A stretch of DNA of 64,000 bases from Asanoa sp. WMMD1127 (GTDB lineage: Bacteria; Actinomycetota; Actinomycetes; Mycobacteriales; Micromonosporaceae), in contig NZ_JARUBP010000001.1 of the NCBI RefSeq assembly GCF_029626225.1, forward strand, positions 4,030,001 to 4,094,000. The letters run 5' to 3'. Below, piece after piece: positions 1,200-6,270 of this stretch. The notes beneath the pieces are model-generated. The model was not told the DNA's origin. It made no database searches and worked only from the letters and a program-made list of their open reading frames with translations. A program made the translations under genes and the position numbers. The first letter of the stretch is position 1, and each line of letters begins with the position of its first letter.

Positions 1200-2858
1200 A
1201 TGGCGAATCCGGCGATCCTCACCGTCGACGACGACCTTGCCGTTTCCCGGGCCGTCGCCCGTGACGTCCGCCGTCAATACGGCGAGCGTTACCGGGTCGT
1301 CCGCGCCAACTCCGGGGCCGAGGCGCTCGATGCGCTCAAAGAGATCAAGCTACGTGGTGACCAGGTTGCCGTCCTGCTCGCCGACTTCCGCATGCCCCAC
1401 ATGAACGGCATCGAGTTCCTCGAAGCGGCGATGGACCTGTTCCCGCGCGCGCGGCGGGTGCTGCTCACGGCCTATGCCGACACCGACGCGGCGATCGACG
1501 CCATAAACCGGGTCGATCTCGACCATTACCTGCTCAAGCCCTGGAACCCGCCGGAGGAGAAGCTCTATCCGGTGCTCGACTCGCTGCTCGAGGCCTGGAC
1601 GGCCACGCCCGAGGCGGGCTCCACCGTCACGCGGGTCGTCGGCCACCGCTGGTCGGCCCCCTCCTTCAAGGTCCGCGACTTCCTGGCCCGCAACCTGGTG
1701 CCCTACCGGTGGTACCTGTGTGACGAGCCCGAGGGCGCCCGGCTGCTCGCCGCGGCCGGGGTGACCGAGGCCGACGTGCCGCTGGTCATCACGCCCGAGG
1801 GCAAGTCGCTGGTCCAGCCGTCCGAGTCCGACCTGGCCACCCACGTGGGGCTGTCGACGACCCCGGCCAAGGACTTCTACGACCTGGTGGTGGTCGGCGC
1901 CGGCCCGGCCGGGCTGGGCGCGGCGGTCTACGGCGCCTCCGAGGGGCTGCGCACGCTGCTGGTCGAGCGGCACGCCACCGGCGGCCAGGCGGGCCAGAGC
2001 AGCCGCATCGAAAACTATCTGGGCTTTCCCGACGGGGTGTCCGGGTCGCAGCTCGCCGAGCGGGCGCGGCGGCAGGCGGTGCGGTTCGGCGCCGAGCTGC
2101 TGACCACCCGCGAGGCCACCGAGCTCGACGTGCGTGGGGCGACCCGGGTGCTCAAGTTCGGCGACGGCAGCGAGGTCGCGTCGCACGCGGTCGTGCTGGC
2201 CACCGGCGTCTCCTACCGCATGCTCGACGCGCCGGGCCTGTCCGACTACCGCGGCCGGGGCGTCTTCTACGGCTCGGCGGCCACCGAGGCGCCCAGCTGC
2301 TCCGGGCAGGAGGTCTACATCGTCGGTGGGGCCAACTCCGCGGGTCAGGCGGCGGTCTACTTCTCGCGGTACGCGCGGCAGGTGCACATCCTCGTCCGGG
2401 GCGACGGGCTGACCCGCACGATGTCGCGCTACCTGATCGACCAGATCGAGAGCCACGAGAACATCGACGTGCACTCCTACACCGAGGTCGCCGAGGCTAC
2501 CGGCGACGACCACCTCGAACGGCTGGTGCTGCGCGACACCCGCTCCGGCGAGACGCGGGACGTCGACACGTCCTGGCTGTTCATCTTCATCGGCGCCGAG
2601 CCGCGCACCGACTGGCTCGACGGTGTGGTCACCCGTGACGCGCACGGTTTCGTGATCACCGGGCCTGACCTGATCGCGGGCGGCAACCGCCCCGTCGGCT
2701 GGTCCATGCCACGCGACCCCTACCACCTCGAATGCAGCATCCCTGGCGTGTTCGCCGCGGGCGACGTCCGCTCCGACTCGGTCAAGCGGGTGGCTTCGGC
2801 GGTCGGCGAGGGCGCGATGGCGATCTCCCTGGTGCACCGTTATCTGGAGGCACAATGA
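1200..2858 (+). CDS. Response-regulator receiver domain fused to a thioredoxin-reductase-like flavoprotein
   Basis: 552 residues. Residues 1-130 are a CheY-like receiver: acidic DDD at 10-12, phospho-acceptor Asp62 in LLADFRMP, Thr90 and Lys113 (LLKPW). A linker domain follows, then from about 220 an FAD/NADPH pyridine-nucleotide oxidoreductase: DLVVVGAGPAGLGAAVYGA, GGQAGQSSRIENYLGF, NADPH-site VYIVGGANSAGQAA and a C-terminal GVFAAGDVR. The normal CxxC redox pair of thioredoxin reductase is absent: the matching stretch reads EAPSCSGQEV with one Cys. The enzyme may therefore not reduce thioredoxin in the classical way. ATG 1200 is chosen because the receiver fold begins there. The stop overlaps the next start (ATGA), coupling it to a sensor kinase. 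It may signal redox state (inference). Confidence 0.9.
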   Translation: MANPAILTVDDDLAVSRAVARDVRRQYGERYRVVRANSGAEALDALKEIKLRGDQVAVLLADFRMPHMNGIEFLEAAMDLFPRARRVLLTAYADTDAAIDAINRVDLDHYLLKPWNPPEEKLYPVLDSLLEAWTATPEAGSTVTRVVGHRWSAPSFKVRDFLARNLVPYRWYLCDEPEGARLLAAAGVTEADVPLVITPEGKSLVQPSESDLATHVGLSTTPAKDFYDLVVVGAGPAGLGAAVYGASEGLRTLLVERHATGGQAGQSSRIENYLGFPDGVSGSQLAERARRQAVRFGAELLTTREATELDVRGATRVLKFGDGSEVASHAVVLATGVSYRMLDAPGLSDYRGRGVFYGSAATEAPSCSGQEVYIVGGANSAGQAAVYFSRYARQVHILVRGDGLTRTMSRYLIDQIESHENIDVHSYTEVAEATGDDHLERLVLRDTRSGETRDVDTSWLFIFIGAEPRTDWLDGVVTRDAHGFVITGPDLIAGGNRPVGWSMPRDPYHLECSIPGVFAAGDVRSDSVKRVASAVGEGAMAISLVHRYLEAQ

Positions 2859-4360
2859 GCACCGAACTCGCCGGTCACGCCGAAGGTGACCGGCTCAGCC
2901 CGGCCGAGCTGCGCAAGCTGTTCCTGTTCGAGAAGCTCGACGCCGAGCAGCTCGACTTCCTGGCCAGCCACGGGTCGGTCGAGCACTACCCGGGTGGCGC
3001 CTACGTCTATCGCGAGGGCGAGCAGGCCACCTGCTTCTACGTGCTGCTCAGCGGCACGGTCGCGCTGCGCCGCAGCGTGCGCGGCGACGAGATCGAGGCC
3101 GCCCGCACCGACCAGGTGGGCGCCTACGCCGGGGCCACCCAGGCGTACATCGAGCGGATCCCGCAGATCTACCTCAACAGCATGGTGGCGATCTCCGACG
3201 TCGAGGTCTACCAGCTGCCCGCCAGCGAGCTGGCCGAGGCGCTCAGGGACTGGTTCCCGATGGCGATGCACCTGCTGGAGGGCCTGTTCTTCGGCATGCG
3301 CTCCATGCAGACGGTGGTCAGCGAGCGCGAGCGGCTGCTGGCCCTCGGCTCCCTGTCGGCCGGCCTCACCCACGAGCTCAACAACCCGGCCGCGGCGGCG
3401 GTCCGGGCGACCTCGGTGCTGCGCACACGGGTCACCGGCATGCGCCACAAGTTGGCCATGATCGCCGACGGGCGGGTCGACGGCACGCGCCTGCACGCCC
3501 TGGTCAACCTGCAGGAAGAGGCGATCAAGCGGGCGGCCGGCGCGCCCGAGCTGACCCCGATGCAGACCAGCGACGCCGAGGACGAGGTCGGCGAGTGGCT
3601 CGAGGACCACGACATCACCGGCGCCTGGGACATCGCGCCGACGCTGGTCTCCGGCGCCATCGACACCGAGTGGCTGACCAAGGTGCGCGGTGAGATCGGT
3701 CCGGAAAACTTCGAGAACGCGCTGCGCTGGCTGGTCTACACGCTCGACACCGAGCAGCTGATGACCGAGATCGACGACGCCGTCACCCGGATCTCGTCGC
3801 TGGTCGCGGCGGCCAAGCAATACTCACAGCTCGACCGGGCGCCGCACCAGACGGTCAACGTGCACGAGCTGCTGCACGCCACGCTGGTGATGCTGCACGC
3901 CAAGTTCCCGAAGGGCATCAAGCTGGTCAAGGAATACGACCGGTCGCTGCCCGACATCCCGGCCTACGCGGCGGAGCTCAACCAGGTGTGGACCAACCTG
4001 ATCGACAACGCGATCAGCGCGATGGGGGAGTCCGGCACGCTGACGGTGCGCACGTCCCGCGAGGGCGACAACCTCGTGGTGTCGGTCGGTGACACCGGCC
4101 CAGGCATCCCCAAGGACATCCGGCCCCGCATCTTCGAGCCGTTCTTCACCACCAAGCCGGTGGGCGAGGGCACGGGGCTCGGGCTCGACATCTCCTACCG
4201 GATCGTCGTCAACAAGCACCACGGCGACATCCGGGTCGACTCGAAGCCGGGGGAGACCTGGTTCCACGTCGTGCTGCCGATCGACCCCGACGAGCCGGTC
4301 GAGCCGACGGACCTCGCGGAGCGGGCCGAGGCCGAGGCCGAAGCCACCGGCGCCGCGTGA
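2855..4360 (+). CDS. Cyclic-nucleotide-binding-domain sensor histidine kinase
   Basis: 501 residues and no membrane segment, so a cytosolic kinase. Residues 20-130 form a CRP/FNR-like cNMP-binding domain (FYVLLSGTVALRR, GAYAG). A dimerisation/phospho-acceptor helix follows with H-box LSAGLTHELNNPA (His173), of the HELNNPL class. The C-terminal HATPase has NQVWTNLIDNAISAMG (N box), GDTGPGIP (G1), FEPFFTTK (F box) and GEGTGLGLDIS (G2). It overlaps the receiver-reductase gene before it by ATGA and the HAD gene after it by GTGA, so the three form one translational unit. The kinase most likely phosphorylates the receiver of its upstream neighbour (inference from coupling). The ligand of the cNMP-like domain is unknown. 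Confidence 0.92.
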   Translation: MSTELAGHAEGDRLSPAELRKLFLFEKLDAEQLDFLASHGSVEHYPGGAYVYREGEQATCFYVLLSGTVALRRSVRGDEIEAARTDQVGAYAGATQAYIERIPQIYLNSMVAISDVEVYQLPASELAEALRDWFPMAMHLLEGLFFGMRSMQTVVSERERLLALGSLSAGLTHELNNPAAAAVRATSVLRTRVTGMRHKLAMIADGRVDGTRLHALVNLQEEAIKRAAGAPELTPMQTSDAEDEVGEWLEDHDITGAWDIAPTLVSGAIDTEWLTKVRGEIGPENFENALRWLVYTLDTEQLMTEIDDAVTRISSLVAAAKQYSQLDRAPHQTVNVHELLHATLVMLHAKFPKGIKLVKEYDRSLPDIPAYAAELNQVWTNLIDNAISAMGESGTLTVRTSREGDNLVVSVGDTGPGIPKDIRPRIFEPFFTTKPVGEGTGLGLDISYRIVVNKHHGDIRVDSKPGETWFHVVLPIDPDEPVEPTDLAERAEAEAEATGAA

Positions 4361-5013
4361 GCCACATCCTCTTCGACTTCTTCGGCACGCTGGTCGACTA
4401 CGACGACGGTCATGCCCGCACGCCGGCCCGGTCGGCGGCGATGGCCGGGCTGCCGGTCGACGAGTTCATCGTGCGGTGGGACGCGGTGTGGATGTCGTGG
4501 GAGGCGCGCTGCGCGCCGTCCGGTCGCGAGTTCTCGATGCTGGACGTGGCGTCGTCGTTCCTGCCCCGCGCCACGCCTTCGGAGGTTTCGGCGTTCGTCG
4601 GGGTCTACATCGACGAGTGGAACGCCGGCGTGCGTTATCTGCCGGGGATCGTCGACCTACTGGGCTCGCTGTCTTCCTCCTACCGGCTCGCGGTGGTCTC
4701 CAACACGCACGAGCCCGACCTGGTGCCGGCCCACCTGGCCGCGATGGGCGTCGCGTCGTTCATCTCCACCGTGGTGACCTCGGTCGAGGTGGGGGTGCGC
4801 AAGCCGGCGCCGCTGATCTACGAGGAGGCGCTGGGTCGGCTCGGCGTCGCGGCCTCGTCGGCCGTGTTCGTCGGTGACAACCCGTCGGCGGACTATTTCG
4901 GGCCGCTGGCGGCGGGCATGCGGGCGTTCCTGATCGACCCGGCGGCACGACATGACGCCGTGCCGCCGGCGCACCGGCTGGCCTCGGTTTTCGACCTGCC
5001 GGCCGTCCTCTAG
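4357..5013 (+). CDS. HAD-superfamily hydrolase
   Basis: 218 residues with all four HAD motifs: I, DFFGTLVDYDDG near the N-terminus (nucleophile Asp and general-acid position in DxxGT); II, VVSNTHEPDL; III, the Lys in VGVRKPAPLIYEEAL; IV, FVGDNPSADYFG. A helical cap lies between motifs I and II (residues about 15-90). It is a phosphatase or haloacid-dehalogenase-like enzyme of unknown substrate. The GTG start overlaps the kinase stop (GTGA), making it the third gene of the receiver-reductase/kinase operon. Its 3' end overlaps the convergent synthetase-like gene by 4 bp. Confidence 0.88.
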   Translation: MSHILFDFFGTLVDYDDGHARTPARSAAMAGLPVDEFIVRWDAVWMSWEARCAPSGREFSMLDVASSFLPRATPSEVSAFVGVYIDEWNAGVRYLPGIVDLLGSLSSSYRLAVVSNTHEPDLVPAHLAAMGVASFISTVVTSVEVGVRKPAPLIYEEALGRLGVAASSAVFVGDNPSADYFGPLAAGMRAFLIDPAARHDAVPPAHRLASVFDLPAVL

Positions 5014-6089
5014 GCCGTGCTCCATTCGTGGGCGCTGCCTTCGTGCAGGGCGGCGTAGACGCGGTCACGGATCCCGTTGGCCTCTGTTGTGGACAGTGTG
5101 TGGCTAAGGTCGCGGAGCACGAGGCGGAGCAGGACGTTCTTCTGTCCTTGGCTGAGGCCCATCCGGTGGCGGGCGGATTCGGGCAGGTCGGCCCAGGGCG
5201 TCTCGCTCCTGACCGAGACCTCCTCGACGGCGGTGGCGTCGTCGCCGAGGGCCGCTCTGACCCGGTCGCCGAGCTGTTCGACGTCCTGGTCGTCGGCGAC
5301 CGCGATCGACAGGTCGCGGCTGGTGGCGGGCATGGCCGAGACCGGTTGGTACGGGCTCAGGTCGCGCATCTGACGTGCGATGCGCGGATCGTCGGCCCGC
5401 AACAGGCGGATGTCGTCGATTCCCTTGACCAGCATGGCGATCCGGTCGAGGCCGAGGCCCATGGCGAGGCCCGTCCGGTGGTCGTCGCGCAGCACCTCGG
5501 GGTGGGCGAGGCCACACTCACCGATCTCGACGCCGTCGACGTAGATCTCGCGTCCGTCCAGTGTGTAGGGATGGGCGCTCTTGGGCGTGTCGATCCGCCG
5601 CCCCGGCAGCACGGCGTGGACCACTGTGTCGATCATCGCTTGCAGGTCGGCGACGGTCAGTCGCCGGTCGGTGCTGACCCGCCAGAGGTCGAGCTGGTGG
5701 GGCTCGCCGACGTGCTGGCGGTCGATCGCGTCGCGGCGGTAGCACATGCCGGGGACGCTGAGCAGGATGTCTGTTTCTTGGAGACCGTCCAGCAGCCTGG
5801 GTATCCGGGCGGTGGTGTGCGACCGCAGCATCCGCTCGGCGTCGACGTAACGGCTGTAGCGGCGGTCCCGGGTGACAGCAGCGCTCTCGTACCGCAGCCG
5901 GTCGTAGTTGTCGGCGACGCTGACGACGCGCGGCCCCGGATCGCGCCGGACCGGGATCTCCCAGCGCGCCGCCAATGCGGCCTCGATGTCGGCGACGACG
6001 TGTTGGATCGCGTGCTCACCGGCGGCGGGGTCGGTGAGGTCGCGACGGGCCAGGGCGGCATCGAGTTGGGCAGGGGTCAGGTAGGACAT
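5010..6089 (-). CDS. Stand-alone phenylalanyl-tRNA synthetase-like protein with C-terminal anticodon-binding (FDX-ACB) domain
   Basis: 359 residues from the ATG at 6089 (MSYLTPAQLDAALARRDL). The core is a class II synthetase fold of the PheS type: motif 2 region YRRDAIDRQHVGEPHQLDLW and motif 3 GLAMGLGLDRIAMLVKGIDDIRL. From about residue 265 comes a ferredoxin-fold anticodon-binding domain (YQPVSAMPATSRDLSIAVADD), normally found at the end of bacterial PheT. PheS core plus FDX-ACB in one chain is the plan of mitochondrial monomeric PheRS, not of the usual bacterial heterotetramer. The long N-terminal coiled coil of normal PheS is missing. It could be a second PheRS, a resistance paralogue or an amide-forming synthetase-like enzyme. 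A terminator hairpin sits between its promoter and start, so it is probably attenuation-controlled. Confidence 0.85.
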   Translation of the reverse strand: MSYLTPAQLDAALARRDLTDPAAGEHAIQHVVADIEAALAARWEIPVRRDPGPRVVSVADNYDRLRYESAAVTRDRRYSRYVDAERMLRSHTTARIPRLLDGLQETDILLSVPGMCYRRDAIDRQHVGEPHQLDLWRVSTDRRLTVADLQAMIDTVVHAVLPGRRIDTPKSAHPYTLDGREIYVDGVEIGECGLAHPEVLRDDHRTGLAMGLGLDRIAMLVKGIDDIRLLRADDPRIARQMRDLSPYQPVSAMPATSRDLSIAVADDQDVEQLGDRVRAALGDDATAVEEVSVRSETPWADLPESARHRMGLSQGQKNVLLRLVLRDLSHTLSTTEANGIRDRVYAALHEGSAHEWSTA

Positions 6090-6126
6090 GGCAGTGCTCC
6101 TCACGGGTTTCGGGCGGACGATGCGA

Positions 6127-6160
6127 CGAAAAACCCCCGGCGTAGGCCGGGGGTTCTTCG
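6127..6160 (-). terminator. Intrinsic terminator/attenuator hairpin upstream of the synthetase-like gene
   Basis: On the minus strand the arms CGAAGAACCCCCGGC and GCCGGGGGTTTTTCG pair (one mismatch) around a 4-nt loop, and the T-run lies in the 3' arm and tail. It lies 38 bp upstream of the ATG at 6089 and 33 nt downstream of a short leader ORF, exactly where an attenuator belongs. It could also simply end transcription from upstream, but its place inside the leader argues for attenuation. Confidence 0.75.
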
Positions 6161-6192
6161 TGGTCGTCCGCACCCGCAAGGGGCGATCGAAA

Positions 6193-6258
6193 TCAGCGCA
6201 CGACGCTCAACCCACCGGTCTCCCGGGGGCGGCTAAATCGCATCACGCGCGGTCGCAT
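6193..6258 (-). CDS. Putative 21-residue leader peptide of the synthetase-like gene
   Basis: Protein MRPRVMRFSRPRETGGLSVVR, stop TGA at 6193-6195. The ATG at 6258 follows the -10 hexamer TACACT (6265-6270) by six nucleotides with no Shine-Dalgarno sequence, the pattern of a leaderless transcript. The ORF ends 33 nt before the terminator hairpin at 6127-6160. It carries one Phe codon (a TTT, rare in this genome) and no run of regulatory codons, so classic Phe attenuation is plausible but not proven. Which amino acid or drug it senses is unknown. Confidence 0.5.
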   Translation of the reverse strand: MRPRVMRFSRPRETGGLSVVR

Positions 6259-6264
6259 GCCACC

Positions 6265-6270
6265 AGTGTA
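6265..6270 (-). promoter_or_regulatory. -10 element TACACT of the leader transcript
   Basis: TACACT fits TANNNT and lies 6 nt before the leader ATG. No good -35 is seen at 16-19 nt further upstream. Confidence 0.5.

Follow-up and report, generated by a model that had tools for sequence, protein, structure and literature searches.

The srmL locus of Asanoa

A stretch of 64,000 nucleotides (nt) from Asanoa sp. WMMD1127 (contig NZ_JARUBP010000001.1, positions 4,030,001 to 4,094,000), here called the window, was examined for the srmL gene, which encodes a stand-alone protein related to phenylalanyl-tRNA synthetase (PheRS), and for the short leader open reading frame (ORF) and hairpins that precede it (Table 1). 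The first-pass annotation of this DNA had reported a TACACT −10 box, a 21-codon ORF starting six bases further on and a strong terminator before the gene, all of which were confirmed at these places. The leader contains a single phenylalanine (Phe) codon and no run of control codons, and an intrinsic terminator is present ahead of srmL. The region 6260–6083 folds with a z score of −6.4, with none of 200 shuffles being equally good. The predicted partner of arm A is arm B, or arm D in other lineages. A scan of the leader region against Rfam, including T-box and riboswitch families, returned nine matches up to E 5, none of them at gathering score.

Table 1. Features of the srmL locus, in window positions
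Feature	Position	Strand	Basis or remark
-10 box TACACT of the putative leaderless transcript, start inferred at 6258	6265..6270	(-)	TANNNT in 43 of 46 loci; 6 nt before the leader ATG
Leader ORF, 21 codons and stop, MRPRVMRFSRPRETGGLSVVR	6193..6258	(-)	F..P leader in 46 of 46 loci; ATG at 6258, stop 6195-6193
Control codon TTT (Phe), leader codon 8	6235..6237	(-)	Phe in 46 of 46 loci, TTT in 42 of 46
Arm A (CCCCCGG), begins 8 nt downstream of the Phe codon's first base	6223..6229	(-)	Pairing
Arm B (CCGGTGGGTT)	6209..6218	(-)	Predicted partner of A, or of C once A is covered by a ribosome at the Phe codon
Arm E, 3' of the leader stop, complementary to the srmL ribosome-binding region	6164..6181	(-)	Folding
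Terminator-like hairpin and T run, arms C (6155-6147) and D (6140-6129)	~6129..6160	(-)	Folding
Arm E', partner of E, overlaps the Shine-Dalgarno sequence	6099..6121	(-)	Folding
Shine-Dalgarno GAGGAG of srmL	6097..6102	(-)	Sequence
srmL, stand-alone PheRS-like protein, 359 residues, no phenylalanine, NCBIfam NF051887	5010..6089	(-)	ATG at 6089

The SrmL protein joins a PheRS class II catalytic core (PF01409, residues 24–241, E 3.7e-29) to a C-terminal FDX-ACB domain of the anticodon-binding type (PF03147, residues 312–350, E 3.2e-7, 31.1 bits, which is exactly the gathering cut-off), in keeping with the fusion proposed beforehand. The FDX-ACB domain is also kept, with weak scores, in two phage proteins described below (loci L118 and L123). 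The window protein scored 476.5 bits over residues 16–351 against the NCBIfam family NF051887, "PheS-related mystery ligase SrmL", for which the cut-off is 300 bits. Mitochondrial PheRS gave the top sequence matches among solved structures (profile A3, E 9e-37), and the mitochondrial PheRS profile TIGR00469 gave 91.2 bits, under its cut-off of 258.35. A longer srmL frame reaching 6179 is a mechanical TTG extension only. The gene is convergent with a HAD-hydrolase gene (4357–5013, forward strand), and the stop codons of the two overlap at 5010–5013.

When aligned with PheS, SrmL was found to keep the class II motifs, namely the motif-2 arginine, the HQ pair, the motif-3 arginine and the pocket alanine. 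In alignment A2 (20 rows), R118, R119, D120, H131, Q132 and R216 are invariant. The Phe-binding pocket FPF of PheS is changed to HPY, and H173, P174 and Y175 are likewise invariant in these rows. The histidine and tyrosine are also invariant in alignment A3, which includes the phages, with the middle residue altered in three phage proteins. Further active-site changes in the window protein are FHQ to PHQ and GFAFG to GLAMG, with the catalytic arginine, histidine and glutamine retained. The motif-2 glutamate is replaced by aspartate, and an additional glutamate is found just before the CG motif.

The presumption that the same genome also holds a normal pheST proved correct, as a separate pheS lies away from srmL (contig C1, 4580695–4581423) and is followed by pheT, for which B3/4, B5 and tRNA-binding domains were detected in the part of the gene covered. 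A housekeeping copy in addition to srmL was present in all four genomes checked, and at least two matches were found in each of the 13 order-level genomes above the SrmL cut-off.

Leader conservation, phenylalanine avoidance and distribution

To compare leaders, a set of 46 loci was used, consisting of 45 actinomycete loci (the window included) and one Azotobacter plasmid. A predicted short ORF with the motif F..P precedes srmL in all 46, and the conservation of the leader ORF in relatives, which had been set beforehand as a test, was thus borne out. In 41 of the 46 loci an ORF with F..PR lies no more than 250 nt from srmL, compared with 13 of 920 dinucleotide shuffles; the arrangement is not a product of chance. 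These leaders look leaderless, because in 43 loci an in-frame leader start has a TANNNT box 5–8 nt ahead of it, compared with 81 of 5484 background ATG/GTG codons, although this count allowed several in-frame starts to be tried at one locus. The leader Phe codon is TTT in 42 loci; in nine genes neighbouring srmL in the window, TTT accounts for 4 of 99 Phe codons. The third codon after it is CCC in every locus and the fourth is CGG in 39, with the remaining seven (L007, L009, L011, L014, L015, L038 and L062) having another codon at this place and still possessing a complementary downstream stretch. As read from these sequences, the fixed points of the leader are one Phe codon and the CCC of a pairing arm at constant distance.

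Phenylalanine is nearly absent from the encoded proteins themselves, with 8 in the 17,418 residues of the 46 SrmL proteins and none at all in 40 of them, including the window protein. Tyrosine (2.27%) and tryptophan (1.26%) show no comparable depletion in the same proteins. The Phe content was 5.79% in PheS cores (18 recovered of 20 loci given) and 3.01% in the nine window neighbour genes. Among 23 distinct cyanobacterial SrmL proteins it was 0.86%, with none in two of them; two cyanobacterial PheS proteins contain 15 and 16 Phe in 330 residues. Five of six large-phage SrmL proteins have no Phe (L119 and L121 being counted from the match start), and other long ORFs at the phage srmL loci have 2.8–6.8%. 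Since the protein is free of Phe, it could be made while Phe-tRNA is missing, and we know of no other simple reason for the pattern. Low cognate bias is an idea proposed for amino-acid biosynthetic enzymes (PMC4209129), and a SrmL without its cognate residue, even in the pocket, would be an extreme form of it.

Of the order's 298 genomes, 13 have an SrmL that scores above the family cut-off, as do 26 of 394 of the class (the window genome being in both counts), 2 of 148 genomes of a cyanobacterial order and 21 of 217 of its family, with the cyanobacterial counts including genomes already known to carry it. When genome contigs were scanned by pattern, 19 loci were obtained. Among these are four from Asanoa at 78–79% identity, with the same four neighbour genes. 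Matches were also found in three plasmid records and in 13 phage records, one near full length and the others covering 51–61% of the query at 26–29% identity. Five contigs of 181–578 kb with srmL were found in IMG/VR, and further virus scans gave nothing beyond the query's own locus. This patchy spread, together with the plasmid and phage copies, suggests horizontal transfer of srmL. A midpoint-rooted tree placed 37 SrmL rows apart from five PheS rows on long branches with support of 100/100, with 14 of the tree rows having an unusual letter composition. No tRNA genes were found on scanning near 51 bacterial srmL loci.

Several individual copies should also be mentioned. On the Glutamicibacter plasmid pGnB68 (L063, 3260–6041), which originates from sludge near a pharmaceutical factory, srmL adjoins a Cmx/CmrA chloramphenicol efflux gene. 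The Corynebacterium diphtheriae plasmid record OV884290.1 holds a partial srmL-like stretch covering 57% of the query, and the partial cyanobacterial matches L048, L049, L050, L051 and L109 are probably decayed copies. Elsewhere in the window, 1161–2858 encodes a response-regulator receiver joined to a thioredoxin-reductase-like (Pyr_redox_2) domain in one protein, followed by a cNMP-binding histidine kinase-like protein (2855–4360).

Two phage loci have leaders of their own, each with several Phe codons and without F..PR. In L118, a 635-kb uncultured phage record, the leader MNTNTTFNFFFSHKMV contains four Phe codons and is followed by a terminator and a Phe-free SrmL. With a ribosome placed on the first Phe codon, a pairing of the B:C type (arms as in Table 1) forms in the transcript ending after arm C. 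L123 carries two successive leaders, MNMLNKNNFSFFMFDFFG... ahead of a terminator and MESDFTHFKSFTT ahead of a hairpin hiding the Shine-Dalgarno sequence, and its SrmL is again Phe-free. Genes for tRNA-Phe(GAA) lie about 200 nt or less from srmL on both sides in L119 (1223–1297 and 2749–2823) and upstream in L121 (1306–1380, with a tRNA-Val between); this proximity is weak evidence, as both copies are inside clusters of several tRNAs.

Proposed function and control of SrmL

From the above, SrmL is probably an emergency PheRS, that is, an auxiliary enzyme of monomeric type induced by uncharged tRNA-Phe, probably under inhibition of PheRS. During normal growth, the leader would be translated past its lone Phe codon to the stop, so that B is covered, C:D forms and transcription ends. 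Any read-through RNA would have its ribosome-binding site shut by E:E'. Should charged tRNA-Phe run short, the ribosome would halt on TTT and cover A, and B:C would form before D is made and hold off the terminator. With E inside the B:C loop, E:E' should be hindered and srmL expressed. The Phe-purged SrmL could then be made despite the missing Phe-tRNA and would recharge tRNA-Phe. Failure of the housekeeping PheRS, for example through an inhibitor or a toxic analogue, is the most likely selecting event, because a second synthetase would be useless if phenylalanine itself were absent. Control by attenuation in response to an amino acid or to an inhibitor of tRNA charging had been suggested beforehand, and this idea is supported and can be narrowed to phenylalanine, since the conserved control codon is for Phe, the protein is nearly Phe-free and two phage leaders are Phe-rich. 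A resistance role for SrmL, raised at the same time, is plausible.

The proposed direction of control is based on the step-wise folding of the window and seven similar leaders (three ribosome states, arms set by eye) and, for the other loci, from the Phe avoidance. In the state with no ribosome, A:B pairing was 0.61–1.00. With a ribosome on the Phe codon, B:C reached 0.62–0.88 in all eight transcripts ending after C, compared with 0.00–0.22 with no ribosome. When the ribosome stood at the leader stop, it covered B, and C:D was 0.68–1.00. Up to arm C, the step-wise folding fits the logic of a classical attenuator in all eight leaders. Once D has been transcribed, however, C:D beats B:C in six of the eight despite the stalled ribosome, and the switch would therefore need kinetic control. 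Equilibrium folding was rejected as a proof of the switch, as the terminator and E:E' are favoured in every ribosome state of the window, so that support comes from step-wise folding alone. Pairing potential was also seen on comparing cognate partners with partners swapped between 29 loci: cognate pairs of E with the ribosome-binding region had a mean of −28.5 kcal/mol versus −23.0 for swapped pairs (p <= 5e-5), and those of A with the downstream stretch −28.7 versus −24.5 (p <= 5e-5), with two control region pairs giving p of 0.064 and 0.15. Having one control codon suits a switch that is kept off until starvation is severe; in a published model, high sensitivity from one rate-limiting codon requires low read-through (PMC1183508).

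A number of observations, including the outcome after transcription of D, weigh against this proposal. In two of the eight leaders (L034 and L009), B:C prevails even without a ribosome. In the window, E:E' remains at 1.00 in all three ribosome states and access to the Shine-Dalgarno sequence is not raised by the stall (0.16 stalled versus 0.25 at the stop). Across the 46 loci this access was higher on stalling in 8, lower in 16 and within 0.05 in 22. Only in 1 of 29 loci for E with the ribosome-binding region, and in 5 of 29 for A:D, did the cognate partner outrank all others in its row. The leader counts are not independent, as 21 of the 46 loci come from one family (f34). A terminator-like hairpin with a T run was detected in only 6 of 46 loci under one rule for all. 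Among the phages, the full L118 transcript retains the terminator in all four ribosome states, and the second leader of L123 keeps the Shine-Dalgarno sequence closed in all four states tried. L120 has no leader and 6 Phe in its SrmL, breaking a strict rule, and L122 has no leader, its srmL following a histidyl-tRNA-synthetase-like (hisS-like) gene. As regards the protein, the FDX-ACB scores are weak, with no such domain at E 0.001 in L121, and the FPF pocket expected of a functional PheRS is HPY in SrmL.

The pocket bears on the alternative that SrmL, upon Phe-tRNA shortage, loads another amino acid or a Phe analogue on tRNA-Phe, or removes one. The change to HPY in 20 rows, the aspartate in motif 2 and the glutamate before the CG motif all favour such a substrate; however, avoidance of Phe would by itself force the replacement of both pocket phenylalanines, and the regulation tracks Phe. 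The eukaryotic cytosolic and archaeal PheRS have N-P-Y at this pocket and still use Phe. We consider this alternative unlikely. It is less likely again that the leader is an arrest peptide of the erm type sensing a ribosome-targeting antibiotic, with Phe merely part of the stalling motif. Leaderless upstream ORFs before antibiotic-response genes are known in actinomycetes, and the F..PR peptide motif is conserved in 41 of 46 loci. Phe aside, however, conservation falls on the residues that arm A encodes, and where these change, a complementary downstream stretch persists (L007, L011, L014 and L062); the leaders of L118 and L123, moreover, have several Phe without F..PR, and the window protein itself contains no Phe. 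That SrmL serves secondary metabolism as an amide or peptide ligase and is not an aminoacyl-tRNA synthetase is the least probable reading: such synthetase-like ligases exist and the NCBIfam name leaves the function open, but the FDX-ACB domain is retained in the window protein, L118 and L123, the window neighbours whose domains were examined are not biosynthetic, tRNA-Phe genes lie near two phage copies and the hisS-like gene before a third, and avoidance of Phe would be pointless in such a ligase, so that the amide-ligase role once proposed found no support.

An emergency PheRS of this kind has relatives among known systems. TrpRS1 of Streptomyces coelicolor is controlled by ribosome-mediated attenuation, and the pheST attenuator of Escherichia coli (leader PheM) acts on housekeeping genes through several leader Phe codons and alternative hairpins. 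TrpRS1, which in contrast to the housekeeping enzyme is resistant to indolmycin, is also a second synthetase for the same amino acid in an actinomycete (PMC9437257, where Kitabatake 2002 and Vecchione and Sello 2009 are cited for TrpRS1 and one cited title mentions induced expression). In the E. coli pheA attenuator (PheL), leader Phe codons similarly govern a Phe-related operon by means of alternative hairpins (PMC5009743), and classical attenuators precede the actinobacterial synthetase genes trpS and leuS in Streptomyces (PMC1262725). For phenylalanine operons in Actinobacteria, that survey reports no conserved RNA structure. Unlike TrpRS1, SrmL would act on Phe instead of Trp, has a class IIc fold and a fused core and FDX-ACB domain, is preceded by a single leaderless control codon and nearly lacks its cognate amino acid. 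Unlike E. coli pheST and pheA, it has one TTT in a leaderless ORF ahead of a spare enzyme. Mitochondrial PheRS (FARS2) is also a single chain with a catalytic core and a C-terminal FDX-ACB domain, from which SrmL differs by its TIGR00469 score below the cut-off, its HPY pocket and its lack of Phe.

Start of srmL in cyanobacteria and meaning for the family

The start of srmL was analysed in 30 full-length cyanobacterial loci (L039–L047, L060 and L089–L108) and in 18 distinct junctions. Upstream of the match, as far back as the preceding stop, the srmL frame of these loci has no ATG, GTG or TTG except for a TTG in L103. An ATG in another frame, mostly with a Shine-Dalgarno sequence, opens M-N-(H/Q/Y)-(L/R)-D-F, with the codons ATG-AAY-NAN-(CTG/TTG/CGG)-GAC-TTY, in which G-GAC-TT is invariant. 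A stop in this frame follows directly after the Phe codon in 11 of the 18 junctions and four codons later in 7, and all 18 go on in the −1 frame with LK(P/L)(D/G)LT(N/D)(P/Q). An ordinary pseudogene frameshift was rejected, as the 18 distinct junctions have the same frame relation, the Phe codon and a conserved −1 frame. By eye, a similar start is seen in phage L121 (ATG-GGG-TTC-AGC-CGC-TAA), where the only in-frame starts are inside tRNA genes, and in L119 (TTG-GAG-TTT-CAC-GGC-TAA), for which an in-frame ATG, 33 nt upstream of where the match begins, may serve as an ordinary start. These two are the phages nearest the cyanobacteria in the tree, and their joint group with L120 has support of 92/87.

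As judged from these junctions, the simplest reading is that cyanobacterial srmL is translated by shifting into the −1 frame while tRNA is awaited at the Phe codon. We put at even odds the reading that SrmL is a starvation-proof PheRS family that, in cyanobacteria and in one or two of the large phages, is switched on by −1 frameshifting when a Phe codon is hungry. Reinitiation could in principle start the protein instead, and the frameshift reading is weakened because 14 of the 18 junctions, counted by eye, have a TTG in frame, at the second L of LKPDLTNP, as a possible start. This TTG is, however, TTA, CTA or CTC in the other four, and the residues ahead of it are conserved in the −1 frame. 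Starvation-induced change of frame at the codon of an uncharged tRNA is known as hungry-codon frameshifting, and a 2016 review states that no case is known in which a trans-frame protein has a function specific to starvation (PMC5009743). If frameshifted, cyanobacterial srmL would be the example that this review lacked, and later examples are possible.

No paper on the SrmL family was found by title in the literature searched, and NCBIfam provides a name without a function. Attenuated synthetase genes and spare resistant synthetases are kinds of system already known, but a spare synthetase cleared of the amino acid that it would serve is new as far as found, and switching by frameshift would itself be of a new kind. 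The proposal gives a testable function to a family named a "mystery ligase" and suggests that natural PheRS inhibitors may select for it. With the arrangement seen in cyanobacteria and phages, it becomes testable whether starvation-induced frameshifting is ever used to make a starvation protein and, if true, SrmL there would be a natural protein that depends for its synthesis on frameshifting at a codon starved of charged tRNA.

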